DNA of 64,000 nucleotides from an uncultured Bacteroidales bacterium (lineage in GTDB: Bacteria; Bacteroidota; Bacteroidia; Bacteroidales; UBA932). The stretch spans positions 22,205-86,204 of the forward strand of contig ONIQ01000002.1 in the NCBI GenBank assembly GCA_900317925.1, read 5' to 3'. The position numbers were made by a program, and so were the translations under genes. The notes beneath the pieces are model-generated. The model worked only from the letters and a program-made list of their open reading frames with translations. It searched no databases and was not told the origin of the DNA. Below, in pieces: positions 40,661-58,821 of this stretch. Each line of letters begins with the position of its first letter. The first letter of the stretch is position 1.

Positions 40661-40719
40661 TAAAGTTACGAAGATTTACACACTTTATTAGCAAATTTAA
40701 ACAGCTTCTAATAGAAGTA

Positions 40720-43218: not shown

Positions 43219-43234
43219 TTCCTTCAAAAAATTG

Positions 43235-43274: not shown

Positions 43275-44882
43275 ATGAATACGAAGTATATCTTTATTAC
43301 GGGCGGCGTGGCATCCTCGCTGGGAAAAGGAATCATCGCTTCGTCGTTAGCCAAACTCTTGCAGGCCAGAGGCTTGCGGGTGACCATCCAAAAATTTGAC
43401 CCCTACATCAACATCGACCCCGGGACCTTGAATCCCTACGAGCATGGCGAGTGCTATGTGACCGAGGATGGCGCCGAGACCGACCTGGACCTCGGACACT
43501 ATGAACGCTTCCTGGGCGTCTATACTTCCAAGGCCAACAACGTAACCACCGGCAAGATTTATCACACGGTCATTACCAAGGAGCGCGAGGGCGCCTACCT
43601 GGGGAAAACCGTGCAGATCGTCCCGCATATTACGGACGAAATCAAACGTCGGATGCTGTTGCTGGGCCGCACCGGAGAGTACGATGTCATCCTGACGGAA
43701 ATCGGCGGAACCATCGGCGACATGGAATCCCAACCCTTCGTGGAAGCGGTTCGCCAGCTGCAGTGGGAACTGCCGGAAGAGGACACCATGTCCATCCACC
43801 TGACGCTCATCCCGTATCTGAGCGCCGCCAAGGAACTCAAGACCAAGCCCACCCAGCACTCGGTGCAGGCCCTCCAGCAGGGCGGTGTGTGGCCGGATGT
43901 CATCGTGTGCCGCACGGAACACCCGCTGTCGGCGGAACTGCGCCGCAAGATTGCCCTCTTCTGCAATGTCCGTCCCGGCCACGTCATCCAGAGCATCGAT
44001 GCCTGGAGCATCTACCAGGTTCCCCTCAACATGCACGAGGAGCATCTGGACGAGTTGGCTGTCCGCAAGTTGCAGATCGATAATTTTGCAACGCCCGACC
44101 TCTCCCGCTGGAAAGAATTCCTGAAACGGATCAAAAACCCGACCCACGAAGTGGACATCGTCCTGGTGGGCAAATATGTGGAACTGCAGGATGCGTACAA
44201 ATCCATCCTGGAGGCATTCGTGCACGCCGGCGCGGCGAATGACTGCCGGGTCCACGTGCACACGCTGCAGAGCGAAAACGTGCATGCAGAGAACGTGGCC
44301 GAACTGCTCAAGGGGGCCGATGGCATCCTGGTGGCGCCCGGCTTCGGCGAGCGCGGCCTGGAAGGAAAGGTGTGCGCCGTCCGGTATGCCCGCGAGAAAG
44401 GCATCCCCTTCCTGGGCATCTGCCTGGGCATGCAAATGTGCGTGGTGGAATTCGCGCGCAACGTACTGGGATGGGCGGACGCCGCCTCCACGGAGGTAAA
44501 TCCCCAATCCGGCCATCCGGTCATCTGCCTGATGGAAGACCAGAAAGCCACCACCATCAAGGGCGGAACCATGCGGCTGGGGGCCTATTCCTGCCAGCTG
44601 GAAGCCGGTTCCCTCGCGGCCCAGTTATACGGCACCACGGAGATCTCCGAACGCCATCGTCACCGCTACGAGTTCAATTCCGACTATCTGGAGGAATTTG
44701 AGAAGAACGGCCTCAAGGCAACCGGACGGAATCCGGAAACCGGCCTGGTAGAGGTGGTGGAACTGCCTGGCCACCCCTTCTTCATCGGCTCCCAGTTTCA
44801 TCCGGAATACAAGAGCACGCCGGAACGTCCCCATCCGCTGTTCACGGGGCTGGTAAAGGCCGCCCTGGAGCACCGGGGCTAG
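43275..44882 (+). CDS. pyrG: CTP synthase
   Basis: PyrG makes CTP from UTP, ATP and glutamine. The protein has 535 aa from ATG 43275 ('MNTKYIFITGGVASSLGKG'); the in-frame extension to 43236 crosses the promoter and is rejected. The synthase half has 'GGVASSLGKGIIASSLAKLL' and 'DPYINIDPGT'. The glutaminase half has the Cys nucleophile in 'FLGICLGMQM' and the His-Glu pair near 'QFHPEYKS'. It converges with ilvE, with a 4-nt overlap of the stop regions. Confidence 0.98.
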   Translation: MNTKYIFITGGVASSLGKGIIASSLAKLLQARGLRVTIQKFDPYINIDPGTLNPYEHGECYVTEDGAETDLDLGHYERFLGVYTSKANNVTTGKIYHTVITKEREGAYLGKTVQIVPHITDEIKRRMLLLGRTGEYDVILTEIGGTIGDMESQPFVEAVRQLQWELPEEDTMSIHLTLIPYLSAAKELKTKPTQHSVQALQQGGVWPDVIVCRTEHPLSAELRRKIALFCNVRPGHVIQSIDAWSIYQVPLNMHEEHLDELAVRKLQIDNFATPDLSRWKEFLKRIKNPTHEVDIVLVGKYVELQDAYKSILEAFVHAGAANDCRVHVHTLQSENVHAENVAELLKGADGILVAPGFGERGLEGKVCAVRYAREKGIPFLGICLGMQMCVVEFARNVLGWADAASTEVNPQSGHPVICLMEDQKATTIKGGTMRLGAYSCQLEAGSLAAQLYGTTEISERHRHRYEFNSDYLEEFEKNGLKATGRNPETGLVEVVELPGHPFFIGSQFHPEYKSTPERPHPLFTGLVKAALEHRG

Positions 44883-45913
44883 AGGTAATAACACCAGCCG
44901 TGGGTGTCTTCCCGCTCGCCGAACTGGACGCCGGTAATGTGCCGGTACAGGCGGGTGCAGACGGGTCCCACCTCGCCGTCGGGCCGGAACCGGAACACCC
45001 GGGTCACCTCCGGTCCTTCCAGCACCGGTTTGATGTCAATATGGGAGATGGGCGTGATGACCACGGCGGTTCCGCAGGCGCCCACTTCTTCGAATTCGGC
45101 CAGTTCCTCCACCGGGACGGGCCGTTTTTCTACTTGCATGCCCAAGTCGGCCGCCACCTCCTGCAGGGTCTTGTTGGTGATGGACGGCAGGACGCTGTCC
45201 GACAAAGGGGTGACATACTTGTTCCCCTTGATGGCGAAGAAGTTGGAGGAACCGAACTCGTCCACAAACTGCCGGGTGGCCGAATTCAGGTACAGCAGTT
45301 CCGTATAGCCCTGGTCGTGTGCCATCTTGTAGGGCTTGAAGGTAGAGGCATAGTTGGCGCCAATCTTGTAACTGCCTGATCCTTTGGGTGCTGCGCGGTC
45401 ATAATTCCCGGGAATCACGGCCGAGAAGGAGCGCAGGTGCTCGCCGTAGTAGGAACCTACGGGGGCGCACATCACGGCAAAGACGGCTTCGGGATACGGG
45501 ACCAGTTGCATCTGCGGATGCATGCCGACCAGGAGCGGCCGCAGGTACAGCGACGCCCGGTGGCCGTAGGGCGGCAGGAACTCCAGGTTGTTCTCTACAC
45601 AGGCCGCGCACATTTGGAGGAAGAGTTCCTTCGGCGGGCAGGGCATGCCCAGGAAATCGGCGGTCCGTTTCATGCGGGCGGCGTTCTGGTCCGGCCGGAA
45701 CAGGGCGATGCGGCCGTCTTGCTGGCGGAAGGCCTTCAGCCCTTCGAAGCAGGAAATCGCGTAATGGAAGACCTGGGCAAAAGGGTCGAAGGTAAAGGAA
45801 AAGGTTTCCGTGGCCTCGAAAGGCGACCATTGTCCGTCTTTGAAGTGGGAAAAGATGACGGTTCGGGTGCGATAGGCGTCGAAGCCCAGGGCATCCCAGT
45901 CTATGCCATTCAT
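44879..45913 (-). CDS. ilvE: Branched-chain amino acid aminotransferase
   Basis: IlvE catalyses the last step of Leu, Ile and Val synthesis. The 344-aa PLP enzyme of fold type IV has 'FAQVFHYAISCFEGLKAFR', the PLP-lysine region 'GSYKIGANYASTFKPYK', 'ELLYLNSATRQFVDEFGSSN' and 'GACGTAVVITPI'. It is the last gene of the ilv operon, 25 nt after the acyltransferase gene. Confidence 0.95.
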   Translation of the reverse strand: MNGIDWDALGFDAYRTRTVIFSHFKDGQWSPFEATETFSFTFDPFAQVFHYAISCFEGLKAFRQQDGRIALFRPDQNAARMKRTADFLGMPCPPKELFLQMCAACVENNLEFLPPYGHRASLYLRPLLVGMHPQMQLVPYPEAVFAVMCAPVGSYYGEHLRSFSAVIPGNYDRAAPKGSGSYKIGANYASTFKPYKMAHDQGYTELLYLNSATRQFVDEFGSSNFFAIKGNKYVTPLSDSVLPSITNKTLQEVAADLGMQVEKRPVPVEELAEFEEVGACGTAVVITPISHIDIKPVLEGPEVTRVFRFRPDGEVGPVCTRLYRHITGVQFGEREDTHGWCYYL

Positions 45914-45938
45914 GATAGGATGTAATTAAGTTCTTGTT

Positions 45939-47462
45939 TTATACAATTCTGCTTTCAATGATATTCAGCATCTTGACGGTCGCTTTGATGGCCGCTTCGG
46001 TCTGGTCGGAATCAACGCCCCGGGTTTTGAACGAATAGCCGTCCAGGTCCCAGGAAATGGAGGTTTCCACCAAGGCGTCGGTCTTTCCTCCCGGGGGAAT
46101 CTTGACCACATAGTCCGTCAGGTGGGGATGCCGACGGCCCAGCCGGTCGTAGATTTTCCACAAGGCTTTCATAAAAGCGTCGTACTGACCGTCTCCGGCC
46201 GAGGATTCTTCGTAGGTTTCCCCTTGGATGCGGATGCGGAGGTTGGCTACCGGGCGCATGCCGTGGGCCAGCTGGAGGCTGTAATTCACCACGTGGACCA
46301 GGCCCTCTCCGGGGGCGTGTCCGCCCTTCAGGACATCGGCGATGATGTAAGGGAGGTCCTCCGGGGTCAGGGATTCCTTCTTGTCTCCCAGTTCCACCAC
46401 CCGCCGGGTAACCAGCTGCATCTGTTCCGGCGTAAGCTCGATTCCCAGGGTCTCCAGGTTCTTGACGATGTTGGCCTTCCCGCTGGTCTTGCCCAGGGCG
46501 TAGTGCCGGTGGCGGCCGAAACGCTCCGGGTGCAGGGCATTCTGGTACAGGCCCCCCTTCTTGTCGCCGTCAGCGTGCACCCCGCTGGTCTGGGTAAAGA
46601 CATATTCTCCCACCAGCGGCATGTTGGACGGGATGCGCACCCCCGAAATGGTCTCCACGTAACGGCACACGTGCATGAGCGAACCTTCTTCCAGGGAATT
46701 CTCCTGCTTCAGGTGGTCGTTCAGCAGGCCCAGGGCGCTGGCTACCGGGAGGTTGCCGGCCCGTTCGCCCAAACCGTTCACCGTGGTGTGGATGCCCCGG
46801 AATCCGGCTTTGACGGCCTCGAAAGTGTTGGCAGCGGCCAGGTCATAGTCGTTGTGGGCATGGAAATCGAAATGCACCTCTGGGTAGCGTTCCACCATCT
46901 GGGAACAGAAGAGGGCAGTCTGGGTGGGATTCAGCACCCCCAGCGTGTCCGGCAGCATGATGCGGTTCACCCCGGCGTCCTGCAGGTGATCCACCAGGAA
47001 AAACACATAATCGGGCGAGCCGGCCATTCCGTTGGACCAGTCTTCCAGGTACACGTTCACGGAAAGACCCTTCGTCCGGGCCAGCGCGATTTCCCGCCGG
47101 ATGTCCTCCCAATGCTCCTCCGGGCTTTTCCGCAGTTGTCCGGTCAGGTGATGGAGGGACCCCTTGGTGAGCAGGTTGAGGCAGCGGCCGCCCACGTCGG
47201 CAATCCAGTTCACCGAGGCACCCTTGTCCACAAAGCCCAGGATCTCGACCTGATCGGCATAGCCGTTGGTAGAGGCCCAGCTGCAGATTTTGGTGCAGGC
47301 TTCCTTCTCGCCGGTGGATACGCGGGCCGACCCCGCCTCGATCCGGTTCACCTTCAATTCTTCCAGCAGCAACCGGGCGATAGCCAGTTTCTCGTCCGCA
47401 TTGAACGAGACCCCGGCTGTCTGCTCCCCGTCACGCAGGGTGGTGTCCATCACCTCAATCAT
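45939..47462 (-). CDS. 2-isopropylmalate synthase / citramalate synthase family enzyme
   Basis: The 507-aa protein starts at ATG 47462 ('MIEVMDTTLRDGEQT'); the frame extends to 47492. It condenses acetyl-CoA with a 2-oxo acid. 'DTTLRDGEQTAGVSF', the metal-binding 'HFDFHAHNDYDLAAAN', 'GLGERAGNLPV' and a C-terminal LeuA regulatory domain are present. Sequence alone does not decide between LeuA (2-oxoisovalerate) and CimA (pyruvate). Sitting in an ilv operon without leuBCD, and with no threonine deaminase nearby, a citramalate route to isoleucine is plausible. It overlaps ilvC by 8 nt. Confidence 0.85.
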   Translation of the reverse strand: MIEVMDTTLRDGEQTAGVSFNADEKLAIARLLLEELKVNRIEAGSARVSTGEKEACTKICSWASTNGYADQVEILGFVDKGASVNWIADVGGRCLNLLTKGSLHHLTGQLRKSPEEHWEDIRREIALARTKGLSVNVYLEDWSNGMAGSPDYVFFLVDHLQDAGVNRIMLPDTLGVLNPTQTALFCSQMVERYPEVHFDFHAHNDYDLAAANTFEAVKAGFRGIHTTVNGLGERAGNLPVASALGLLNDHLKQENSLEEGSLMHVCRYVETISGVRIPSNMPLVGEYVFTQTSGVHADGDKKGGLYQNALHPERFGRHRHYALGKTSGKANIVKNLETLGIELTPEQMQLVTRRVVELGDKKESLTPEDLPYIIADVLKGGHAPGEGLVHVVNYSLQLAHGMRPVANLRIRIQGETYEESSAGDGQYDAFMKALWKIYDRLGRRHPHLTDYVVKIPPGGKTDALVETSISWDLDGYSFKTRGVDSDQTEAAIKATVKMLNIIESRIV

Positions 47463-48498
47463 TCTCGGGACGGAGTTTGCGTACGGTTGCACCGGTCTGC
47501 CACAGCTCGCTTTCGCGCAGGGCTTTCAGTTCTTTCTCCAGGCCCTCGCGATAGCCGGGTTTAGAGTTCGCATCGATGGAAATCTGGGCCTCGGTGCCAT
47601 CGGCCACCTGCTTGTACAGTTTCTCAAACACCGGCTTCGTGGCATCGTGGAAAGGACCCATCCAGTCCAGGGCGCCGCGCTGGGCGGTGGTGGAGCAGTT
47701 GGCATACATCCAGTCCATGCCTTTCTCGGCAAAGAGCGGCATCAGCGACTGGGTCAGTTCCTCGACGGTTTCGTTGAAGGCCTCGGACGGCGTGTGGCCG
47801 TGCTCGCGAAGGACCTCATACTGGGCCAGGAAGATACCCTGGATGGCACCCATGAGCGTTCCGCGCTCACCGGTAAGGTCGGAATAGACCTCGCGCTTGA
47901 AATCCGTTTCGAAGAGGTAGCCGGAACCCACGCCCACGCCCAGGGCCAGGGTGCGTTCCAGGGCCTTTCCGGTGGCATCCTGGTGGACGGCGAATGAGGA
48001 ATTGACGCCCCGTCCCTGCAGGTACAGGCGGCGCAGCGAGGTGCCGGAACCCTTCGGGGCCACCATGATCACATCCACATCCTTGGGCGGAACAATCCCG
48101 GTGCGGTCGTTGTAGGTGATGCCGAAGCCGTGCGAGAAATACAGGGCCTTGCCCGGGGTCAGGTGCTTCTTCACCACCGGCCAAACCTCAATCTGGGCCG
48201 CGTCGGACACCAGGAACTGGATGATGGTTCCCCGTTTGCAGGCCTCTTCAATCTCGAACAGGTTTACCCCGGGCACCCAGCCGTCGGCCACGGCCTTGTC
48301 GAAGGTCTTGCCTTTGCGCTGACCCACGATCACATTGAAGCCGTTGTCTTTCAGGTTGAGGGACTGGCCCGGACCCTGGACACCATAGCCGATAACGGCG
48401 ATTACTTCATCTTTCAGGACCTCACGTGCGTGATCCAGGGTGAACTCTTCGCGGGTGACGACATGTTCGTCCACTCCGCCAAAATTAATTGTTGCCAT
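47455..48498 (-). CDS. ilvC: Ketol-acid reductoisomerase
   Basis: IlvC is the second enzyme of Val/Ile synthesis, an NAD(P)H-dependent isomeroreductase. The 347-aa class I protein has the Rossmann motif 'IGYGVQGPGQSLNLKDNG', 'VMVAPKGSGTSLRRLYLQGRG', and the metal/substrate site 'DLTGERGTLMGAIQGIFLAQYEVL'. It lies 9 nt after ilvN. Confidence 0.96.
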   Translation of the reverse strand: MATINFGGVDEHVVTREEFTLDHAREVLKDEVIAVIGYGVQGPGQSLNLKDNGFNVIVGQRKGKTFDKAVADGWVPGVNLFEIEEACKRGTIIQFLVSDAAQIEVWPVVKKHLTPGKALYFSHGFGITYNDRTGIVPPKDVDVIMVAPKGSGTSLRRLYLQGRGVNSSFAVHQDATGKALERTLALGVGVGSGYLFETDFKREVYSDLTGERGTLMGAIQGIFLAQYEVLREHGHTPSEAFNETVEELTQSLMPLFAEKGMDWMYANCSTTAQRGALDWMGPFHDATKPVFEKLYKQVADGTEAQISIDANSKPGYREGLEKELKALRESELWQTGATVRKLRPEND

Positions 48499-48507
48499 AC
48501 TGTTAGA

Positions 48508-49071
48508 TTAATTTAGTTGTTTTTTGACTCTTTCTCGTTTGCGCAGGAATTTCACGACGGGCTCCTGCTCGGCCCGGGAAATGGCAATCCGTCCGGAACG
48601 GATGAACTGGAGGATGCCGTAGGGTTTCAGTTCGTCATACAGGTGGGCGGTCTCCTCGGTGGTGCCGGTTTTCTGCAAAACCGTAAAGCACTTGTTCATT
48701 TCCACGATGCGGGCGTGGTGGCGGTTCAGAACGGATTCGATATCCCCTTCCAGCAGGCTGGGCGTGGCCACCTTGTAGAGCGCCACCTCGCGATAGACGA
48801 TTTTGTCGTGGGTGTAGAAGAACGCCTTGATCACGTCCACGCGCTTTTCAATCTGCTGCACGCTCTCCTTGACCTTTTTCTCCAGTCCGCTGGTGACAAT
48901 GGTGATGTTGTGGACGCCTTCCATGGAGGTGGCGCCGGCCGAGAGGCTCCAGATGCTCAGGCCGTGCCGGGTGAACACGTTGGTAATCTGGGAAAGCAGG
49001 CCGATCTGGTTTTCGGTATAGATCGTTACCGTATATTCTTTTACTTCGTTGTCCATATCTATTCGTACCAT
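48508..49071 (-). CDS. ilvN: Acetolactate synthase regulatory subunit
   Basis: The 187-aa small subunit gives IlvB stability and feedback inhibition by branched-chain amino acids. The N-terminal ACT domain ('YTVTIYTENQIGLLSQITNVFTRHGLSI') is followed by a second ACT-like domain. It overlaps the ilvB 3' end by 13 nt, suggesting coupled translation. Confidence 0.93.
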   Translation of the reverse strand: MVRIDMDNEVKEYTVTIYTENQIGLLSQITNVFTRHGLSIWSLSAGATSMEGVHNITIVTSGLEKKVKESVQQIEKRVDVIKAFFYTHDKIVYREVALYKVATPSLLEGDIESVLNRHHARIVEMNKCFTVLQKTGTTEETAHLYDELKPYGILQFIRSGRIAISRAEQEPVVKFLRKRERVKKQLN

Positions 49072-50771
49072 TCGTTTTCTGAAAGCATGATCTGGTTGAT
49101 GCCTTTGCCCGGGGGAATCATGGGCATGACATTGCTCTCCTGCATCACGTGGATATCAACCAGGACGGGAGCGTTGTCGGCAAGGCTTTCCCGGACCGCG
49201 TCCTCGAGTTCCTCGCGGCGGTTCACCACGATGCAGCGGATGCCGTAGGCCTGTGCGATCAGCCGGTAGTCCGGATTCAGCATGCGGGTCTGGGAATACC
49301 GCTTCCCGAAGAAGAGTTCCTGCCACTGGCGCACGTTGCCCAGCCAATTGTTGTTGAGGAGGAAGATCTTCACGCCGATGTTTTCCTGCATGATGGTGCC
49401 GAATTCCTGGAGGGTCATCTGGATGCCGCCGTCACCGACAAACAGGCACACCGGCCGGTCCGGAGCCGCAATTTTGGCGCCCATGGCCGCCGGGATCCCG
49501 AAGCCCATCGTCCCCAGGCCGCCCGACGAAAGGAAGCTGCGGGTCTGCGAGAAGCGGGAATAGCGAGCGGCGATCATCTGGTTCTGTCCCACATCCGTCA
49601 CCACGATGGCTTTTTCGCCGGACAGGCGGGAGACGGCATCGACCACCTCGCCCATGTGGATATCGCCTTTGGCGGGATGCAGCTCGGGCCGGATCACCTT
49701 TTCCTGCTCCACCTCGCGGCAGCGCTTGAAGCCTTCCAGCCATTGGGGATGCTTGCGCGCCTGCATCTTCTCGGTAAGGAGGGTGAGCACCTTGCGTGCA
49801 TCGCCCTTGATGCCCACCGTGACGGGGATGATTTTCCCGATTTCGGACGGGTCGATGTCGATGTGGATGACGTGGGCCTGCGTGGCGTAGGTGTTCACGG
49901 TGCCGGTGACCCGGTCGTCGAAACGCATGCCCACGGCGATGAGCAGGTCGCACTGGTTGGTCATGATGTTGGGAGCCACGTTTCCGTGCATGCCGATCAT
50001 GCCCTGATACAGCGGGAAGTCAGAGCTTAAGGAGCTCAGCCCCAGCAAGGTAGAGCCGGCGGGGATATCCCCTTTGGTGAGGAAATCCTTCAGCGCCTGC
50101 TCGGCGCCGCTCAGGATGACGCCTTGTCCGAAGACCACCAGCGGCCGCTCGGCGCGGTCCAGCAGATCCACGGCCTGGCGGATGCACAGGTCGGAAATCT
50201 TGGGTTCCGGAATGTAACTGCGGATGTAGTCGCATTTCTCATAATGGAAGTCGGTCAGGCCCACCTGGGCGTCCTTGGTGAAGTCCAGCACCACGGGCCC
50301 CGGCCGGCCGGTCCGGGCGATATAAAACGCCCTTGCAACGGCCCAGGCTACGTCTTCCGCGCGGCGGATCTGGTAGTTCCATTTGGAAATCGGGCCGGTA
50401 AGGCCGGTAACATCGGCCTCCTGGAAAGCGTCCGTACCCAGGGCGGCGGAAGATACCTGGCCGGTGACGACCACCAGCGGCGTGGAATCCGTAAGGGCAT
50501 CTACGATACCGGTCACCACATTCGTGGCGCCGGGACCGGACGTAACAATCACCACTCCCGGCTGACCCTTGATGCGGGCGTAGCCCTGGGCGGCATGGAC
50601 CGCCCCCTGCTCGTGGCGCACCAGAATGTGCCGGATGTCTTGCTCAAAGTCGCAGAGACTGTCATAAACCGGCATAATCTGGCCGCCGGGATAGCCGAAG
50701 ACGGTATCGACACCCTCTTCCATGAGAGATTTCCACAGGGCAGCAGCCCCACTTATCTGATTCTTTTTCAT
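49059..50771 (-). CDS. ilvB: Acetolactate synthase catalytic subunit
   Basis: IlvB is the ThDP enzyme that makes acetolactate and acetohydroxybutyrate. The 570-aa protein has the catalytic Glu in '[18 protein letters not shown]', the FAD-contacting middle domain, and the ThDP motif '[18 protein letters not shown]' through '[12 protein letters not shown]'. The ATG overlaps the ilvD stop by 4 nt. Confidence 0.97.
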
Positions 50772-52597
50772 ATTTTCCTGATCGCTCCTTCATCGGCCGA
50801 ACTCACGGCAGCTGCATAGCTGCGAAGGCTGCGGGATACGCTGCGCTGGCGTCTGGGCGGGGTAAAGGCCGCCTCTCCACGTGCCAGCTCCTCCTGGCGG
50901 CGCTGTTCCAACGCCTCCGGGCTCAGGCACACGTTGATGGAGCGGGCCGGGATGTCAATTTCAATCAAGTCTCCGTCGCGGACCAGGCCGATGGCGCCAC
51001 CGGCCGCCGCTTCCGGCGAAATGTGGCCGATGCTCAAGCCCGAGGTGCCGCCGCTGAAACGGCCGTCGGTGATGAGGGCGCAGGCCTTCCCCAGGTGCAT
51101 GGATTTGATGTAGGAGGTGGGATAGAGCATTTCCTGCATGCCCGGACCGCCCTTGGGGCCCTCGTACACGATGACCACCACGTCGCCGGCCTTCACCTGA
51201 CCGCCCAGGATGCCCTCACAGGCCTCTTCCTGCGAATCGAACACCTTGGCGGGACCTTTGAAGCGGTACAGGGAGGCATCGATGCCGGCGGTCTTGATGA
51301 CGCAGCCCCTCTCGGCGATGTTTCCCTTGAGCACGGCCAGGCCGCCGTCCTGCGAATAGGCGTGGGAGAGGTCCCGGATGCAGCCGTTTGCCCGGTCGCG
51401 GTCCAATTCTTTATAATAGGTGGATTGGGAGCCCATCTGGATGCTGAAGCGGTTCGCGGGGGCGCAGGAATACACTTTTTCGGCTTCCTCCGACGTCTTT
51501 TCGCCGGTAATCCGGTAGCGGTCCAGGGCCTGGGCCAGGGAGAGGCCGTCCACCCGTTTCACCGTGGTATCCAGGAGGTTGCCGCGGTCCAGCTCGTTCA
51601 GGATGCCCAGGACGCCGCCGGCGCGGTTTACGTCCTGTACGTGGTACAGGGGCGTGTTGGGCGCCACTTTGCACAGGCAGGGGACTTTGCGGGACAGCCG
51701 GTCGATGTCTTCCATCCGGAAGTCGGCTTCCGCCTCGGCCGCCACGGCCAGCAGGTGCAGCACCGTATTGGTCGATCCGCCCATGGCGATATCCAGCGAC
51801 ATGGCGTTGAGGAAGGCTGCCCGGCTGGCGATGGCGCGCGGGAGGACGCTCTCGTCCCCGTCGCGATAATATTTATAGGTATTCTCCACGATCACGCGGG
51901 CCGCCTGGCGGAACAGTTCCGTCCGCCCGGTATGGGTGGCCACGATGGTCCCGTTGCCGGGGAGGGCCAGGCCGATGGCTTCGGTGAGGCAGTTCATGGA
52001 ATTGGCGGTGAACATGCCGGAGCAGCAGCCGCATCCGGGGCACGCCGCCGCTTCGATGGCGGCCACTTCCGCATCGTCCTTGGACGGATCGGCCGACTGG
52101 ACCATCGCGTCGATCAGATCCAGGCGGTCTTTTCCGCGGACGCCGGCTTCCATCGGCCCGCCGGACACGAAAATGGCGGGGATGTTCAGCCGCATGGCGG
52201 CCATCAGCATACCGGGGGTAACCTTGTCGCAATTGCTGATGCAGACCATCGCGTCGGCCTTGTGGGCGTTTACCATGTATTCCACGCTGTCGGCAATGAT
52301 GTCTCGGGAGGGAAGGGAGTACAGCATGCCGTCATGCCCCATGGCAATGCCATCGTCCACGGCGATGGTGTTGAATTCGGCCGCAAAGCAGCCCAGTTTT
52401 CCGATTTCTTCCTTGACCAGCTGCCCGATTTCGTGCAGATGGGTGTGGCCGGGAACAAACTGCGTAAAGGAGTTGACAATGGCAATGACAGGCTTGCCCG
52501 CCTGGTCGGGTTTCATCCCGGCCGCGTGCCAGAGCGCCCGGGCTCCGGCCATTCTCCTGCCTTCGAAGGTGACAGAACTTCTGAATGGATGCTTCAT
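50768..52597 (-). CDS. ilvD: Dihydroxy-acid dehydratase
   Basis: IlvD is the Fe-S dehydratase forming 2-oxoisovalerate and 2-oxo-3-methylvalerate. The 609-aa protein has cluster ligands in '[12 protein letters not shown]' and '[20 protein letters not shown]', and the C-terminal '[20 protein letters not shown]'. It is the first structural gene of the operon. Its ATG is about 9 nt after the T run of an attenuator terminator, so expression depends on antitermination. Confidence 0.97.
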
Positions 52598-52605
52598 AAT
52601 GTTTA

Positions 52606-52643
52606 CAAAAAAAACCTTCCCGGCTACTTGGACCGGGAAGGTT
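52606..52643 (-). terminator. ilv attenuator terminator
   Basis: On the minus strand the perfect 11-bp stem AACCTTCCCGG/CCGGGAAGGTT (52643-52613) with a 9-nt loop runs into an eight-base T tract. It sits between the leader peptide and ilvD. Its 5' arm is also complementary to the end of the leader peptide coding sequence. Confidence 0.92.
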
Positions 52644-52684
52644 GTGATATCGTTTGGTCGTGTTCCTTATAGCCTTCCCGGTCC
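52630..52684 (-). promoter_or_regulatory. ilv antiterminator pairing
   Basis: The last codons of the leader peptide contain GGACCGGGAAGG (minus strand, 52684-52673). It is perfectly complementary over 12 bases to CCTTCCCGGTCC (52641-52630), the 5' arm of the terminator. Pairing here prevents the terminator. A ribosome stalled at the Leu/Ile/Val codons would leave this segment free; one reaching the stop at 52667 would cover it. Confidence 0.88.
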
Positions 52685-52741
52685 TGGTCCTACAAGAATC
52701 AGAACAATAAGGGAGAGGATAATCAGGCTACTCAGATTCAT
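52667..52741 (-). CDS. ilv leader peptide (attenuation sensor)
   Basis: This 24-residue frame begins MNLSSLIILSLIVL, continues ILVGPGPGRL and ends in TAA. Thirteen of the 24 residues are Leu, Ile or Val, ten of them between positions 6 and 17. The codons are mixed (CTG, ATT, ATC, CTC, CTT, GTT, GTA), so all three amino acids could be sensed. It lies just downstream of a good promoter and is followed by mutually exclusive hairpins, as in classical ribosome-mediated attenuation of amino-acid operons. There is no sign of another function. Confidence 0.88.
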   Translation of the reverse strand: MNLSSLIILSLIVLILVGPGPGRL

Positions 52742-52762
52742 CTCTATTTTGTTAAGCGAAGG

Positions 52763-52794
52763 CGAAGTTACGGAATATAATTTTAGGAAACAAA
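52763..52794 (-). promoter_or_regulatory. ilv operon promoter (TTTG-N20-TAACTTCG)
   Basis: On the minus strand TTTG (52794-52791) and TAACTTCG (52770-52763, one mismatch to TAnnTTTG) are 20 nt apart. The predicted start lies about 15 nt before the leader-peptide ATG. Confidence 0.7.
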
Positions 52795-52986
52795 TAATTT
52801 TTCAAACTATTTTGCTGATATTCAGATTCTTAAAAATTATTCAAACCGCCGCTTAGAAAGCAGAATCGCGATTTTACTTACAATTTGTAAGCAAATTGCA
52901 GGCAGACCGGCCGGAGATGTACCACAGACCCCGAAATAATGCTAAATAATGATGCGGACACCGAGTACGTAAGATTAAAACAAGCC
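52795..52986. other. Spacer between ilv promoter and metF, with a short palindrome
   Basis: These 192 nt are non-coding as far as can be seen. CTTACAA-T-TTGTAAG (52877-52891) is a 7-bp-arm palindrome. No terminator was recognised for metF. Confidence 0.5.
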
Positions 52987-53895
52987 TTAAAACGCAGCAC
53001 GGAGTACATCCGTGATGTTTTGGGATTTCCCCATGGTGTAAAAATGGATGGCGGGGACCTGGTGTGCCAGCAGGTCCCTGCATTGTGCAATGCACCATTC
53101 AATCCCCACGCGGCGGACCGCTTCGGCCTTGTCTCCGGCCTGGCGGATGGCCTGGGTCAGTTCCCGCGGAATGTCAATGGAGAACGTCTCGGGCAGCACA
53201 TCTACCTGCTTCCGGGTGGTGAGGGGTTTTAAGCCGGGAATAATGGGAACGGTGATGCCCGCCGCCCGGCACTTTTCCACAAAGCGGAAGAAGACCGCGT
53301 TGTCAAAGAACATCTGCGTAATCACATAATCTGCGCCGGCATCGACCTTCGCCTTCAGGTATTCGATGTCCGTCTCCAGGTTGGCCGCCTCGAAATGCTT
53401 TTCCGGATAGGCGCCTACGCCCACGCAAAAGCCTGCCTGTTCCCGGATGGCGCGCACGAGTTCGCTGGCGTGTGCGTAACCGTCCGGTTCCGGGGTAAAG
53501 CGCTTCTCGCCTGCGAGGGAATCGCCCCGCAGCGCCATCACATTGTCGATTCCCATGAAGTGGAAATCCTGCAGCTGCCATTCAATCTCCCGGGCGGTGT
53601 GTCCCGAGCAGATGATGTGGGGCACCACTTCTACCGGGAAATGGGCCTGGATGCAGGCGCAAACGGCTACGGGGGACACGCGGTTGCGGACCACCTCGCG
53701 TTTGTAGCTGCCGTCCGGAAGCGGGGTATATTGGAGTTCATCCCGATGGGTGGTCACATTGATATACCGGGGCTGGAAATCCATCAAGGGGCGAATGCTG
53801 TCCAATAGTTCACGCTGGGTGATTCCGCTCAGGGGCGGAACGATTTCCAACGAGGGAAAGGGGTGTCCGGAAGAGAAAAGATCGGTGATTCTCAT
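52987..53895 (-). CDS. metF: Methylenetetrahydrofolate reductase
   Basis: MetF reduces 5,10-methylene-THF to 5-methyl-THF, the methyl donor for MetH. The 302-aa protein has 'FPSLEIVPPLSG', 'VTTHRDELQYTP' and the folate/FAD region 'HIICSGHTAREIEWQLQDF', 'NVMALRGDSLAGE', 'YVITQMFFDNAVFFRF'. Its ATG overlaps the metH stop by 4 nt, so the two enzymes of this step pair are translationally coupled. Confidence 0.95.
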   Translation of the reverse strand: MRITDLFSSGHPFPSLEIVPPLSGITQRELLDSIRPLMDFQPRYINVTTHRDELQYTPLPDGSYKREVVRNRVSPVAVCACIQAHFPVEVVPHIICSGHTAREIEWQLQDFHFMGIDNVMALRGDSLAGEKRFTPEPDGYAHASELVRAIREQAGFCVGVGAYPEKHFEAANLETDIEYLKAKVDAGADYVITQMFFDNAVFFRFVEKCRAAGITVPIIPGLKPLTTRKQVDVLPETFSIDIPRELTQAIRQAGDKAEAVRRVGIEWCIAQCRDLLAHQVPAIHFYTMGKSQNITDVLRAAF

Positions 53896-56800
53896 AACAG
53901 ATGGGATAAGAAGGTCCGGGCTTCTTTCGGGGAGAAGCCGCGAGCCTTTGCATATTGTTCGAATTGGGTAGGGGAAATATGGTGGATATCGGGATAGCCG
54001 CCCTGTGGATGCAGGACCACGAATCCGCAGATGGAAGCGTCCGGCTGCATGGCGCAGCTTTCGGTTAACGAGATGCCCAGTCCGGGAGGCAGCAGGGCCA
54101 GGATGTCCCGTTTGAGGCTGTGGTCCGGACAGGAGGCATAGCCGGCAGCGGGCTTGAAAACGGGAACCCCCAGGGGCTCCAGCTGCTTGTCCAGCCAGGA
54201 AGAAGCGGCTTCGGCCAGGGTTATGCGGACGGCATGCCGCATCATGCCTTCGTATTCGTTCCGGCAGGCTTCGCAGGAGCAGCCTTTGGGGTGATGGCCG
54301 TGAACGGCCAGGGCAAAAATGCCGAAAGGACCGCTGCCGGAGGCCGGAACAAAGTCGGCCAGGGATCGTCCCGGCCCCTCTTCCTGCCGGAGCATGGGCA
54401 GGCGGACTTTGTCCAGCAGCAGGGTGTCGCCCTCGCGGCGGGCGGCGAAGAAGCGGGCGGCCAGCCGGACCTCAACGGACGGGTCCCGGACCATGTCCGC
54501 CAGGATGGCCCGGCCTTCGGCCTCCAGGGCCGGGGACGGTTTTTTCATGCCCCAGACGGCCCGGAAGAGCGTCCAGTCAAAGAGGGGCACCAGCTCGCGC
54601 AGGGGGATTCGGGTGAGGGGAATATCGGCCGGAATCCGGGTCAGATAACTTTCCGGCGGGAACGTGACGGGGGTCAGCGGATGGGGTTTGCGGCCTTCCC
54701 GCAGGGCGCGGATTTCTTCCTGGCGGGCGTGCTGCTCCGCCTCGAACGCTTCCCGGTCCTGCAGGCAGCGCTGCGCCATCACGGCTCCGGCCGACGCGTC
54801 CGGCGCGTGGAAAACGTGCGCATAGAGCGGGGCCAGTTTGACGGCCGTGTGCAGGTCGGAAGTCGTGGCACCGCCCACAAAGAGCGGGATGGAAAGCCCC
54901 CGAGCGGTCATTTCCCGGCACAGCTCTTCCATCTGGTACAGCGAAGGGGTAATGAGGCCGCTTACCCCGATGAGGGCGGCGAGATGCTCCTCTGCGGCGG
55001 CCAGGATGGTCTCTTTGTCCACCATCACCCCCAGGTCAATCACGTCAAAGCCGTTGCAGCGCAGGACGGTGGCGGCAATATTTTTCCCGATATCGTGCAC
55101 GTCTCCCTTGACGGTGGCCGAGATGACAACGGGGCGCCTGCTGCGTTGGCCATCGGCCTGGATATGGGGTTCCAGGATGGCCACGGCATCTTTCATGAGT
55201 TTGGCGCTCTTGACCACCTGCGGGAGGAACATGCGGCCTTCCCCAAAGCGGCGGCCCACTTCCTCCATGCCGGCCATCAGGGGGCCTTCGATCACTTTGA
55301 CGGCCGACCCCAGCGCCTGCATGACCGTCATCAGGTCTTCTTCCAGCGAGGCGGAACGGCCGCTGATGAGGGCCTCTTTCAGGCGCTCCTCGGGCGTTCC
55401 CTGCAGGGCTTGGGGGGCGGCGGAACCTTCCGGGGCGGGAGCCAGGGTCCGGGCGGCCACGTCCAGGAGGCGGGCGGTCGCATCCGGCCGGCGGCACAGG
55501 ATCACGTCTTCGGCCGCTTCCCGCAGTTCCGGTTCTATGTCGTCATACTGCTGTAGCATCCCGGGGTTCACGATGGCCATGTCCAGGCCGGCGCGGATGG
55601 CATGGTAGAGGAAAACGGCGTGCATGGCCGAGCGGACCGGATTGTTGCCGCGGAAGGCGAAGGAAAGGTTGGAAATACCGCCGGACGTATAGGCTCCGGG
55701 CAGGTTCTGTTTGATCCAGGCCACCGCGTCGATGAAGTCCACGGCGTAGCGGTCGTGCTCGGCCATCCCGGTTCCCACGGACAGCACGTTCACGTCGAAA
55801 ATGATGTCGTGCGGGGGAATGCCGATGCCGGTGAGCAGCCGGTAGGCCCGCTGGCAGATTTCAATTTTGCGCGGATAGGTCGTGGCCTGCCCCTGCTCGT
55901 CGAAAGCCATTACCACCATGGCGGCTCCCAGGCGATGGATCTCGGCCGCCTTGTCCAGGAAGGCCTGCTCTCCGTCCTTGAGGCTGATGGAGTTGACGAT
56001 GCATTTTCCCTGTGCGTTTTTCAGGCCTTTCAGGAGGGTCTCCCAATGGGAAGAATCAATCATCAGGGCCGCCCGGGCCACGGCCGGGTCGTTCTGCAGC
56101 ATGCGCACAAAGGTCTCCATCGCCACCGGTCCGTCCAGCATCGCATCGTCCATGTTGATGTCGATGATGCCGGCGCCGCCTTCGATTTGGTTGGCCGCCA
56201 CCTGCAGGGCTTCCTCGTACTGCCCGGCCGCGATGAGTTTGGCAAACTTCCGGGAACCGGCCACGTTGGTGCGCTCTCCGATGAGGGTGAAATTCCGGGT
56301 CCGGGTATCCACCGTCCAGGCCTCCAGGCCGCTGACGGTAAGCACGTTCCGGTCCGATGGAAGGATCCTCGGGGAGAGGGTCGGCAGGCTTTTGATATGG
56401 GCGGGCGTGGTGCCGCAGCAGCCTCCGATGATGTTGACCAGGCCGTCGAAGCCGGCGATTTGTGCCGCCATCTGTTCCGGCGTCTGGTCATAGCCTCCCA
56501 TCTCGTTGGGAAGTCCGGCGTTGGGGTAGCAGATGATGGGCACGGGACACCAGGCCGCCAAACTCTTTACCAGGGGCAGCAGTTCTGCTGCGCCCAGCGA
56601 GCAGTTGAGGCCGAAGGCCAGCAGGGGATAGTGGCTGACGGCGGTGAAATAGGCTTCCAGAGTCTGGCCGGTGAGGGAGCGTCCGCTCCGGTCGCTGACG
56701 GAAACGGAAACCATCACCGGGAATCCCGGATGCACTTGCTGGATGCCGTACAGGGCCGCTTTTGTGTTGAGGGCGTCAAAGGCGGTTTCCAGGAGGAGAA

Positions 56801-57215
56801 AGTCCACCCCGCCTTCGATCAAGGCCTGTGCATGGGCGGCGTACGCCTGTGCCATCTGGTCAAAATCGTACTCCCGCCAGGCGGGGCGGGAAAGATCGGA
56901 ACAAAGGGTAAGCGACTTGGAACTGGGTCCCATGCTCCCGGCCACCCAGACCTTTCGCGGAGCGGCATCGGCCACCTCCCGGGCCAGTTGTGCGCCGATG
57001 CGGGCATTCTGCGCCGCATGCTCTCCCAGAACGTTGAAAGAGTTGGTTTCCAGGATATCGGCTCCAGCATCTACATAGGCCTGGTGGATGGCTTTGATAA
57101 CGTCCGGGTGAGAGAGGTTCAAATCCTCTCCGGGCTGCAGGCCATGTTGCTGGATTTGTGTGCCCATGGCTCCGTCCAGCCGGAGCACACGGGAGGTAAG
57201 TTCGTTTTTAATCAT
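53892..57215 (-). CDS. metH: Cobalamin-dependent methionine synthase
   Basis: MetH transfers the methyl group from 5-methyl-THF to homocysteine via cobalamin. The protein has 1107 aa from ATG 57215 ('MIKNELTSRVLRLDGAMG'); the frame extends to 57290 past the promoter. Domains in order: homocysteine-binding barrel with Zn cysteines ('FGLNCSLG', 'GGCCGTTPAHI'), pterin-binding barrel ('IGERTNVAGSRKF'), cap, B12-binding domain with the lower-ligand motif 'GDVHDIGKNI', and the reactivation domain ('AAGYASCPDHSLKR'). No cobalamin riboswitch fits in the short upstream region. Confidence 0.96.
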   Translation of the reverse strand: MIKNELTSRVLRLDGAMGTQIQQHGLQPGEDLNLSHPDVIKAIHQAYVDAGADILETNSFNVLGEHAAQNARIGAQLAREVADAAPRKVWVAGSMGPSSKSLTLCSDLSRPAWREYDFDQMAQAYAAHAQALIEGGVDFLLLETAFDALNTKAALYGIQQVHPGFPVMVSVSVSDRSGRSLTGQTLEAYFTAVSHYPLLAFGLNCSLGAAELLPLVKSLAAWCPVPIICYPNAGLPNEMGGYDQTPEQMAAQIAGFDGLVNIIGGCCGTTPAHIKSLPTLSPRILPSDRNVLTVSGLEAWTVDTRTRNFTLIGERTNVAGSRKFAKLIAAGQYEEALQVAANQIEGGAGIIDINMDDAMLDGPVAMETFVRMLQNDPAVARAALMIDSSHWETLLKGLKNAQGKCIVNSISLKDGEQAFLDKAAEIHRLGAAMVVMAFDEQGQATTYPRKIEICQRAYRLLTGIGIPPHDIIFDVNVLSVGTGMAEHDRYAVDFIDAVAWIKQNLPGAYTSGGISNLSFAFRGNNPVRSAMHAVFLYHAIRAGLDMAIVNPGMLQQYDDIEPELREAAEDVILCRRPDATARLLDVAARTLAPAPEGSAAPQALQGTPEERLKEALISGRSASLEEDLMTVMQALGSAVKVIEGPLMAGMEEVGRRFGEGRMFLPQVVKSAKLMKDAVAILEPHIQADGQRSRRPVVISATVKGDVHDIGKNIAATVLRCNGFDVIDLGVMVDKETILAAAEEHLAALIGVSGLITPSLYQMEELCREMTARGLSIPLFVGGATTSDLHTAVKLAPLYAHVFHAPDASAGAVMAQRCLQDREAFEAEQHARQEEIRALREGRKPHPLTPVTFPPESYLTRIPADIPLTRIPLRELVPLFDWTLFRAVWGMKKPSPALEAEGRAILADMVRDPSVEVRLAARFFAARREGDTLLLDKVRLPMLRQEEGPGRSLADFVPASGSGPFGIFALAVHGHHPKGCSCEACRNEYEGMMRHAVRITLAEAASSWLDKQLEPLGVPVFKPAAGYASCPDHSLKRDILALLPPGLGISLTESCAMQPDASICGFVVLHPQGGYPDIHHISPTQFEQYAKARGFSPKEARTFLSHLL

Positions 57216-57223
57216 TGTCAAAG

Positions 57224-57231
57224 CAAAGATA
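57224..57231 (-). promoter_or_regulatory. metH promoter, -7 element TATCTTTG
   Basis: On the minus strand it matches TAnnTTTG, 8 nt before ATG 57215, giving a nearly leaderless mRNA and supporting that start. Confidence 0.55.
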
Positions 57232-57304
57232 TAGAAAAAATTGGGAAAGTTTTGCAAGAGCCGGTTTGGAATAGCAAGTCGGAAGCACATTATAATACGC
57301 TATT

Positions 57305-57376
57305 TTCAGCGGAAACATACGTAAAATTATAACTTTCCGCTGAATATAAGGATATATTTGCTATATTTACAGCGGA
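57305..57376 (+). promoter_or_regulatory. ATPase promoter with three CAGCGGA operator copies
   Basis: TTCAGCGGAAA (57305-57315) is mirrored by TTTCCGCTGAA (57334-57344), and CAGCGGA recurs at 57370-57376. The last two form an inverted pair whose centre (57356) coincides with the -7 box TATATTTG (57353-57360). No clear -33 TTTG is seen. Confidence 0.65.
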
Positions 57377-57393
57377 TAACAAAAACGGAATCA

Positions 57394-58821
57394 ATGATTA
57401 TAGGACGAGAAAAAGAGCAACGCGCATTGCAAGACCTCCTTGAAAAGGAAGAGTCGCAGTTCTGTGCCGTTTATGGCCGCCGTCGCGTAGGCAAGACATA
57501 TCTCATTCGTGAGACCTTCAACTATCGTTTCTGTTTTCAGCATACGGGAGTGGCAAAAGGAACACTGCGCCAACAACTTACGGCATTCCGCAACTCCTTG
57601 ACGACGGCAGGCCTTCACAAGTGCAGTGTTCCTGGCACTTGGATTGAAGCCTTTGAACTACTGAAACAACTTATTGAAGATGCGCCGGTAGGGAAAAAAG
57701 TAATCTTTATTGACGAACTCCCTTGGATGGACACCCCCAAAGGGAATCTGATTAGCGCTCTGGAAAGCTTTTGGAATGGATGGGCAACGGCTCGCCCTGA
57801 GAAAGACATTGTGCTGATAGTGTGTGGCAGCGCCACTTCTTGGATTAGCAAGAAACTCTTGAAGAACAAGGGTGGGCTTCGAGGAAGACTGACCCAGCGC
57901 ATCAAACTTGCCCCATTCACATTACGCGAGTGCGAACTCTTTGCCCAAGGGGCCAATCTCGCCTACGGCAGGAAGGATGTGCTGGAACTGTATATGATTC
58001 TCGGCGGCATACCCTACTACTGGAGCTTTCTGAAACGGGGATTGAGTGTGGCGCAGAATGTAGACCAACTGTTCTTCTCGGAAAATTCACAGCTGCGGGA
58101 TGAATTCGAGGCGCTTTATGCCACCCTGTTCAAACGCCCGGAGAACTATCTCAAGGTCATCGAATGTTTGAGCGACGGAAGGAGGTCCGGAATGACAAGG
58201 GAAGGCATACTGACAGCAAGCAAACTCTCGGACGGCGGCACATTCTCCACAGTATTGGAAGAGTTGGAAGAATGCGGATTCATACGCCGTTTTTCCTCTG
58301 CCGATACAGCGGAGTCCAACGCTTTGTACCAGCTCATAGACAACTACACGCTTTTCTATTACCTTTGCATCCTGAAAAATGCCTTCAGCGATGAGCATTA
58401 TTGGCTGAACACCTTCACGTCACCTTCTCATAACACATGGAAGGGGCATGCTTTTGAGCGCGTATGCCTCCAGCATATTCCGCAGATAAAAGCAGCCCTT
58501 GGTATATCCGGCGTTCAGACCAACGTATGTTCGTGGTTCATCCGTGGCACAGATCAGCGCCGTGGGGCACAAATTGACTTGGTCATGCAGAGAGCCGATG
58601 GTTTTACGGATATCTGCGAGATGAAACATGCTGCGGACACCTTTTCCATCGACAACGATTATGCCGGCGACCTGCAAAACAAACTCAATGCCTATCAAGA
58701 ATTTTCAAAGGATAAGCGAACCCTTCATCTTGTCATGGTTACAACAAACGGAGTCGCTCACAATGTTTACTATAACATGGTGCAGAATGAGATAACGATG
58801 GACGATTTGTTTGCGGAGTAG
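57394..58821 (+). CDS. AAA ATPase with C-terminal DUF234-like nuclease fold (second of three)
   Basis: The 475-aa protein starts at ATG 57394 ('MIIGREKEQRALQDLLEKEE'); an upstream TTG at 57358 overlaps the promoter. Walker A is 'VYGRRRVGKTYL', Walker B 'KKVIFIDELPWM'; sensor-like 'LIVCGSATSWI' follows. A winged helix sits around residues 255-310. The C-terminus has a PD-(D/E)XK-like pattern ('RRGAQIDLVMQRADGF' then 'DICEMKHA'). Such ATPases are common and patchily distributed in Bacteroidales; no function is established. G+C is lower than in neighbouring housekeeping genes, consistent with transfer. Confidence 0.85.
   Translation: MIIGREKEQRALQDLLEKEESQFCAVYGRRRVGKTYLIRETFNYRFCFQHTGVAKGTLRQQLTAFRNSLTTAGLHKCSVPGTWIEAFELLKQLIEDAPVGKKVIFIDELPWMDTPKGNLISALESFWNGWATARPEKDIVLIVCGSATSWISKKLLKNKGGLRGRLTQRIKLAPFTLRECELFAQGANLAYGRKDVLELYMILGGIPYYWSFLKRGLSVAQNVDQLFFSENSQLRDEFEALYATLFKRPENYLKVIECLSDGRRSGMTREGILTASKLSDGGTFSTVLEELEECGFIRRFSSADTAESNALYQLIDNYTLFYYLCILKNAFSDEHYWLNTFTSPSHNTWKGHAFERVCLQHIPQIKAALGISGVQTNVCSWFIRGTDQRRGAQIDLVMQRADGFTDICEMKHAADTFSIDNDYAGDLQNKLNAYQEFSKDKRTLHLVMVTTNGVAHNVYYNMVQNEITMDDLFAE

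Follow-up and report, generated by a model that had tools for sequence, protein, structure and literature searches.

A predicted leader-peptide attenuator upstream of the ilv operon of an uncultured Bacteroidales bacterium and its relatives

In Enterobacteria, the ilv, leu, his, trp and thr operons are preceded by attenuators, which combine a leader peptide carrying control codons, rival RNA helices and a terminator placed just before the first gene. We here analyze a stretch of 64,000 nucleotides from an uncultured Bacteroidales bacterium (contig ONIQ01000002.1 of assembly GCA_900317925.1, positions 22,205 to 86,204; hereafter “the window”; genome of 2.18 Mb in 75 contigs), in which a short frame rich in leucine, isoleucine and valine codons precedes ilvD, the first gene of an ilv operon. 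The sequence of this leader suggests that it is a ribosome-mediated transcription attenuator, to which we assign a probability of about 0.93. Published work describes the closest systems within the phylum. The Bacteroid-trp leader, a peptide leader ahead of a biosynthetic operon in Bacteroidota, constitutes Rfam family RF01692 (Weinberg et al., 2010; PMC2864571). Flavobacterium psychrophilum, a member of the same phylum, is reported to show strong clues that leader peptides attenuate its amino-acid operons (PMC9723704), and frames reminiscent of leader peptides are mentioned for B. thetaiotaomicron, along with the lack of Shine-Dalgarno sequences in Bacteroidota (PMC7366714). The literature searched yielded no paper recognized as describing such leaders for ilv, leu or his genes of Bacteroidales; an earlier prediction may exist.

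The leader of the window is composed of the following elements:

52763..52794, minus strand: Bacteroides-type promoter-like site, recognized from the sequence, with TTTG at 52794-52791, N20, and TAACTTCG at 52770-52763
52667..52741, minus strand: leader peptide frame MNLSSLIILSLIVLILVGPGPGRL, 24 codons from the ATG at 52741 to the TAA at 52667
52691..52726, minus strand: control codons 6-17 of the leader frame, with 11 Leu/Ile/Val codons
52673..52684, minus strand: antiterminator strand GGACCGGGAAGG, within leader codons 20-23
52630..52643, minus strand: terminator 5' arm, common to both rival helices, with AACCTTCCCGG at 52643-52633
52607..52623, minus strand: terminator 3' arm CCGGGAAGGTT at 52623-52613 and run of eight T at 52614-52607, from a terminator scan

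The original prediction had described most of these parts, and the promoter of the form TTTG-N20-TAACTTCG, the 24-codon frame, the segment in its last codons with perfect complementarity to the terminator 5' arm over 12 nt, and the perfect 11-bp terminator with its eight-T run about 9 nt before ilvD are all present where they had been placed; its count of ten Leu/Ile/Val codons between positions 6 and 17 has to be corrected to 11, and Leu3 raises the total for the frame to 12. Specifically, GGACCGGGAAGG pairs without mismatch with the 12 nt of CCTTCCCGGTCC (52641-52630), AACCTTCCCGG and CCGGGAAGGTT form 11 perfect pairs, and 9 nt separate the T run from the ilvD ATG at 52597. The hairpin ranked first among 18 in a terminator scan of 44000-58000, with the most pairs. 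The locus unites a frame rich in codons for the products of its operon, whose translation is predicted, with an intrinsic terminator and a rival antiterminator helix. When at least 10 Ile, Leu or Val in 12 codons and a strong terminator at most 90 nt away were demanded, the ilvD leader was the sole match on both strands of the window, and six dinucleotide-preserving shuffles yielded none. The 12-nt complementarity between leader and terminator arm was equalled in 0 of 200 leader shuffles.

Judging from the promoter, RNA polymerase would start about 15 nt upstream of the leader frame, with a ribosome following behind and translating the leader peptide. Under a shortage of charged Leu-, Ile- or Val-tRNA, the ribosome should stall at an early control codon (approximately codons 6-14), leaving GGACCGGGAAGG free to pair with CCTTCCCGGTCC before the terminator 3' arm exists; no terminator would form, and ilvD-B-N-C-cimA-ilvE would be transcribed. 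If all three amino acids are plentiful, the ribosome would reach the stop codon and cover the antiterminator strand, so that the 11-bp terminator could form and transcription would halt just before ilvD. The start of transcription, the dynamics, the ribosome footprint and the amino-acid response are parts of this scheme that we infer.

The most direct comparison is offered by the regions upstream of ilvD in other genomes. Using ilvD as query, 110 loci were collected, 30 from 61 related genomes and the best 80 of 596 from named genomes. Three partial loci (L028-L030) were dropped, leaving 107 with a gene start; by the record label or the search that fetched them, Bacteroidota account for 82 of these and other phyla for 25. 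Two of the 107 (L017 and L067), both without a qualifying leader, seem to be one genome entered twice. A leader was called if a frame of at most 40 residues, starting with ATG or GTG, contained at least eight Ile, Leu or Val in 12 codons and was followed by a terminator at most 90 nt away. This family rule was satisfied at 50 of the 82 Bacteroidota loci, the window included, compared to 0 of 25 from other phyla, and at 10 of 14 loci of the window's own genus. In a phylum-wide sample of ilvD loci it flagged 4 of 30, namely the window, L233, L235 and, doubtfully, L215. The cross-genome alignment that the original prediction had proposed as a check thus bears it out at many loci: relatives again show leader frames, the complementary segments and both helices, with covariation among them; the 32 loci that fail the rule are weighed below.

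In the family, control codons are followed by the strand (U)GAGAAAGG and, mostly 20-45 nt further on, by a hairpin AAGCCTTTCTCA..GAGAAAGGCTTTTTT. In most relatives, the antiterminator strand either spans the stop codon of the leader or begins right after it; in the window and in some members of its genus, it lies wholly within the last leader codons. In both arrangements, a ribosome at the stop codon should cover the strand, if usual footprints apply. A Bacteroides-type promoter with at most one mismatch lies within 120 nt upstream of 44 of the 48 leaders with enough upstream DNA, compared to 9.5% of shuffles. Shine-Dalgarno-like words were found upstream of the leader at 0 of 50 loci, where 47% of the DNA is A. 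The leader peptide, the rival helices and the position of the terminator are as in the enterobacterial attenuators, from which the Bacteroidales leaders differ in lacking a Shine-Dalgarno-like motif and in carrying the antiterminator strand inside or across the stop codon; the likeness is one of layout. Tandem pairs of complete leader and terminator units occur before ilvD in three loci (L025, L088, L262) and before ilvB in another (L264), and Labilibaculum sp. K2S is among the genomes with such tandem units before one ilv operon.

Both rival helices leave a signature in the sequences of the family. With 47 of these 50 leaders aligned by MAFFT (L023, L077 and L088 excluded), the terminator helix shows 60 double-change cells, compared to 18.5 in shuffles, and the antiterminator helix, which played no part in choosing the loci, is paired in 85.4% of cells and shows 32 double-change cells, compared to 9.6 in shuffles; 0 of 500 shuffles were as high in either case. 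Moreover, the complementarity between leader and terminator arm beats shuffles at P ≤ 0.05 in 42 of 50 leaders, and an antiterminator region pairs better with the terminator arm of its own leader than with that of another, 0 of 2000 permutations reaching as low a value. These observations bear on the simplest alternative, a constitutive terminator for transcripts of the upstream metHF genes, accompanied by a small frame that arose by chance. metF indeed ends at 52987 on the same minus strand, about 190 nt upstream of the promoter-like site, but this site separates metF from the hairpin, covariation extends to the second, rival helix, the composition of the peptide tracks the downstream gene, and comparable places were absent from the six shuffles, all of which makes a constitutive terminator very improbable. 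Alternatively, translation of the leader might act via Rho or via translational coupling to ilvD instead of switching an intrinsic terminator. Four loci from another Bacteroidota family outside Bacteroidales (L209, L210, L213 and L216) would suit such a mode of action, as they carry ILV-rich frames before ilvD and no recognized terminator; the T-tailed hairpin present in 50 loci, including the window, and the covariation of its rival helix in the 47 aligned ones leave this mode of action with equally little probability.

A third helix, the protector (1:2), might form early in the leader. Across the family, pairing of the initial 12 codons with the sequence just beyond the antiterminator strand averages -12.0 kcal/mol within leaders versus -8.5 kcal/mol between leaders, and 0 of 2000 permutations were as low; in a related test against shuffles, 13 of 50 leaders reached P ≤ 0.05, with a mean P of 0.22. 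A protector helix is therefore supported across the family and should favor termination if the leader is left untranslated. For the window alone it is uncertain, with a rank of 0.06 in the permutation test, P = 0.09 in the shuffle test, and folds that point both ways. The description of the layout as strikingly minimal in the original prediction needs correcting: an antiterminator strand wholly in frame is a local variant, and with its protector helix the family resembles the classical four-segment layout more than a minimal layout.

The strongest functional evidence is provided by codon specificity. Of the residues in 34 ilvD leaders, 19.8% are L, 16.3% I and 19.4% V (V 133/687; 101/523 after removal of the eight leaders used for training the covariance model described below), whereas in 20 leuA leaders the values are 20.6, 20.6 and 1.8% (V 8/441). 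The difference in V is highly significant if relatedness is ignored (Fisher P 1.9e-18), and V is higher in the ilvD leader in 14 of 14 genomes having both leaders (sign test P 0.0001). In a separate leuA sample, drawn partly from the same genomes, 15 of 28 loci were flagged (L343, L351 and L356 doubtful), with V at 12 of 345 residues. The codons themselves are biased as well: relative to ilvD of the same loci, CTA is 6.3-fold, GTC 2.2-fold and ATT 1.8-fold enriched in the leaders, and GTA and GTT are about one third as frequent. The enrichment of the Leu codon CTA resembles the enterobacterial leu leader.

The absence of valine codons from leuA leaders has a counterpart in the genes that follow. 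A leu operon together with the citramalate route would supply leucine and isoleucine, not valine. All five leuA operons behind such leaders that could be read through (L327-L331) have the order leuA-leuC-leuD-synthase-leuB, where gene order and N-termini, judged by eye, served to identify leuC, leuD and leuB; another operon (L332) extends beyond the fetched stretch. The extra synthase of these five shares 59-64% identity with the cimA-like gene of the window, and its best model is the Leptospira citramalate synthase at 637-663 bits, below the cut-off of 950. As these leuA operons carry a citramalate-synthase-like gene, they would serve leucine and isoleucine, matching their leader codons. In the separate leuA sample, 14 of the 28 genomes have a second, distant synthase on the leuA contig, at most 5 kb from leuA. 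One genome (G142) has ilvD-B-N-C followed by leuACDB and no such synthase, and Leu/Ile/Val leaders stand in front. The agreement between codons and products, as read from the sequences, would be hard to explain except through translation-based sensing, and ribosome-mediated ilv attenuation in Bacteroidales, as originally proposed, is supported by the match between control codons and the products of the downstream operon.

Comparable leaders precede other amino-acid operons of the order. A His-run leader with terminator was found at 23 of 30 hisG loci (L118-L147) and a Trp-run leader with terminator at 23 of 26 full-length trpE loci (L148-L173); four shorter trpE-like loci gave one false flag (L176). 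In L148, L151, L154, L156 and L160, the trp leader lies approximately 1.4 kb before trpE, so that another gene intervenes. These leaders also bear on the possibility that the frame encodes a functional small membrane protein, whose transmembrane helix would account for Leu, Ile and Val. The peptide is hydrophobic and would resemble a short transmembrane segment, but leader peptide sequences differ widely across loci while the residue classes stay, leuA leaders lose Val specifically, the comparably placed his and trp leaders are runs of His and Trp, and leader codons are biased; a membrane protein thus seems even less probable than the two alternatives above.

The trp leader of this set is the Bacteroid-trp element of Rfam, which means that the kind of system is already known. 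Two of seven trp loci submitted to Rfam matched Bacteroid-trp (L151 and L148), and no family was matched by any of 8 his, 10 ilv (the window, L001, included), 12 leuA and 2 gltB loci. In the window, no match to RF01692 reached the gathering score, and at the leader itself no Rfam family exceeded its cut-off. Bacteroid-trp differs from the window leader in its Trp codons and trp genes, and the window, ilv, his and leuA loci given to Rfam remained unmatched. The ilv leader of the window joins a known kind of system, and the tested ilv, leu and his leaders fit no Rfam family. T-boxes, riboswitches or protein-bound attenuators, which regulate such genes in other phyla, are the least probable sensors here, given the lack of Rfam matches above cut-off in the window and at the tested ilv and leuA loci and a codon specificity that points to translation. 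A constitutive terminator, a membrane micropeptide and a T-box or riboswitch were each rejected on the grounds given. Altogether, ribosome-mediated attenuation by a leader peptide looks common in Bacteroidales.

Further searches used a covariance model of antiterminator and terminator, from which the control codons were left out. At E ≤ 0.01 the model marked 89 places in 57 of 149 Bacteroidales genomes, of which 86 were read; the other three are L113 and L116, before ilvD, and the second tandem unit in L264. All 24 matches at E ≤ 1e-4 precede ilvD (17, five of them training sequences), leuA (5) or gltB (2), and the other 19 of the 24 are not training sequences. Between 1e-4 and 1e-3, 23 of 25 precede ilvD, leuA, gltB or an ilvE-like gene (three of the 12 at ilvD being training sequences), and between 1e-3 and 1e-2, 19 of 37 are unexplained, 14 lie before ilvD or leuA, and one each before gltB, ilvB, an ilvA-like gene and hisG. 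Among 247 genomes across the phylum, 13 had a match at E ≤ 0.001 and two, both Bacteroidales, at E ≤ 1e-4; of 11 weaker matches read, five appeared attenuator-like by eye and six did not. Outside the order, L367 and L368 show aromatic-rich leaders with Phe and Trp before a trpE-like gene, and L371 a Thr/Ile-rich leader before an aspartokinase-like gene; in L372 and L374, genes resembling ilvD and ilvN follow leaders of the Ile/Val or Ile type (all genes named by eye).

An exact pattern, GARAAAGG..CCTTTCTC..GAGAAAGG, was found at 7 places in 6 of 393 Bacteroidales genomes, and its reversed control at none. Four places lie before ilvD (L111, L113, L114, L116), L117 lies before a leuA-like gene, and L112 and L115 are ilvD loci. 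As a measure of distribution the pattern was discarded, being too strict and failing to match the window's own group. The conserved CCTTTCTC arm may bear some likeness to the 3' tail of 16S rRNA; three-strand pairing would suffice to explain its conservation.

The window leader was folded with the ribosome edge assumed 12 nt past the A codon. Before the 3' arm is made, the 12-bp antiterminator forms when the ribosome stalls at codon 6, 12 or 14; for a stall at codon 17 the helix is far weaker (-7.0 kcal/mol), and for codon 20 there is almost none. In the full leader, stalls at codons 12 and 14 keep the antiterminator despite the presence of the whole terminator, and a ribosome at codons 16, 17 or 24, the last being the stop-codon position tested, gives the terminator. 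In the full leader without a ribosome, the antiterminator strand is taken up and the terminator is formed.

Several observations weigh against attenuation as described here. In the full leader, the minimum-energy fold for stalls at codons 6 and 9 holds the terminator and another helix, and a stall at codon 6 favors the antiterminator only as long as the 3' arm has yet to be transcribed (codon 9 was folded at full length only); the early codons would therefore depend on co-transcriptional order. If neither a ribosome nor the 3' arm is present, the antiterminator is again the fold of minimum energy, so that termination in the absence of translation is not clearly explained in the window. Among relatives, 32 of 82 Bacteroidota ilvD loci fail the family rule, among them four of the 14 loci from the genus of the window (L013 with a frame and no recognized terminator, L006, L008 and L009 with neither), and many failing loci from named genomes carry the label Prevotella or Prevotellaceae. 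The window genome's own leuA and hisG are without such a leader, and at E ≤ 0.01 the covariance model failed to recover the leader of the window, despite its presence in the training set. Finally, two of five measures of antiterminator covariation give a weaker signal, equalled in 18 and 31 of 500 shuffles, and pairing of the terminator helix is partly built in, as loci were chosen for having a hairpin.

The operon downstream reads, on the minus strand, ilvD, ilvB, ilvN, ilvC, a cimA-like gene and ilvE:

50768..52597, minus strand: ilvD, dihydroxy-acid dehydratase, first gene of the operon (NCBIfam TIGR00110, 768 bits, cut-off 618)
49059..50771, minus strand: ilvB, acetolactate synthase large subunit (TIGR00118, above cut-off)
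48508..49071, minus strand: ilvN/ilvH, acetolactate synthase small subunit (TIGR00119, above cut-off)
47455..48498, minus strand: ilvC, ketol-acid reductoisomerase (TIGR00465, above cut-off)
45939..47492, minus strand: citramalate synthase-like gene (cimA-like; top family Leptospira citramalate synthase, 635 bits, below the cut-off of 950)
44879..45913, minus strand: ilvE, branched-chain aminotransferase (TIGR01123, above cut-off)

The closest solved structure to the cimA-like product is likewise the Leptospira citramalate synthase (E 1.3e-114). Elsewhere in the window, at 40708-43227, open frames of 839 and 832 codons on opposite strands cover almost identical DNA, and one of them is presumably spurious.

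In a few genomes, the antiterminator-terminator core also occurs upstream of gltB (L186, L193, L201, L245, L252, L260, L298), with a TGA that overlaps or abuts the antiterminator strand. In a sample of gltB loci, 3 of 30 have the core and a leader ending in such a TGA (L295, L298, L305), and a covariance-model match (L260) adds a fourth genome, G049; the core is not a general feature of gltB. Most of these leaders are no Leu/Ile/Val runs, and in some, e.g., MKTKHTSFANKHAYKHNKIVQ, nitrogen-bearing side chains seem abundant. It is conceivable, albeit rather unlikely, that one ancestral core in Bacteroidales, consisting of antiterminator and terminator and often with the leader stop codon as part of the antiterminator strand, was reused before ilv, leu and, in some genomes, gltB operons while leader peptides were exchanged, those of gltB possibly sensing nitrogen status via a different stalling signal.

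If the ilv leader is indeed an attenuator, Bacteroidales ribosomes would initiate on it without a Shine-Dalgarno-like motif, and they would stay near enough to RNA polymerase to steer the folding of the RNA. Transcription-translation coupling in Bacteroidota would then be directly testable using a single reporter. The leuA leaders with Leu and Ile codons and without Val predict that isoleucine is made via citramalate and the leuBCD enzymes, and the Bacteroidales leaders as a whole would constitute a family of compact natural amino-acid sensors.

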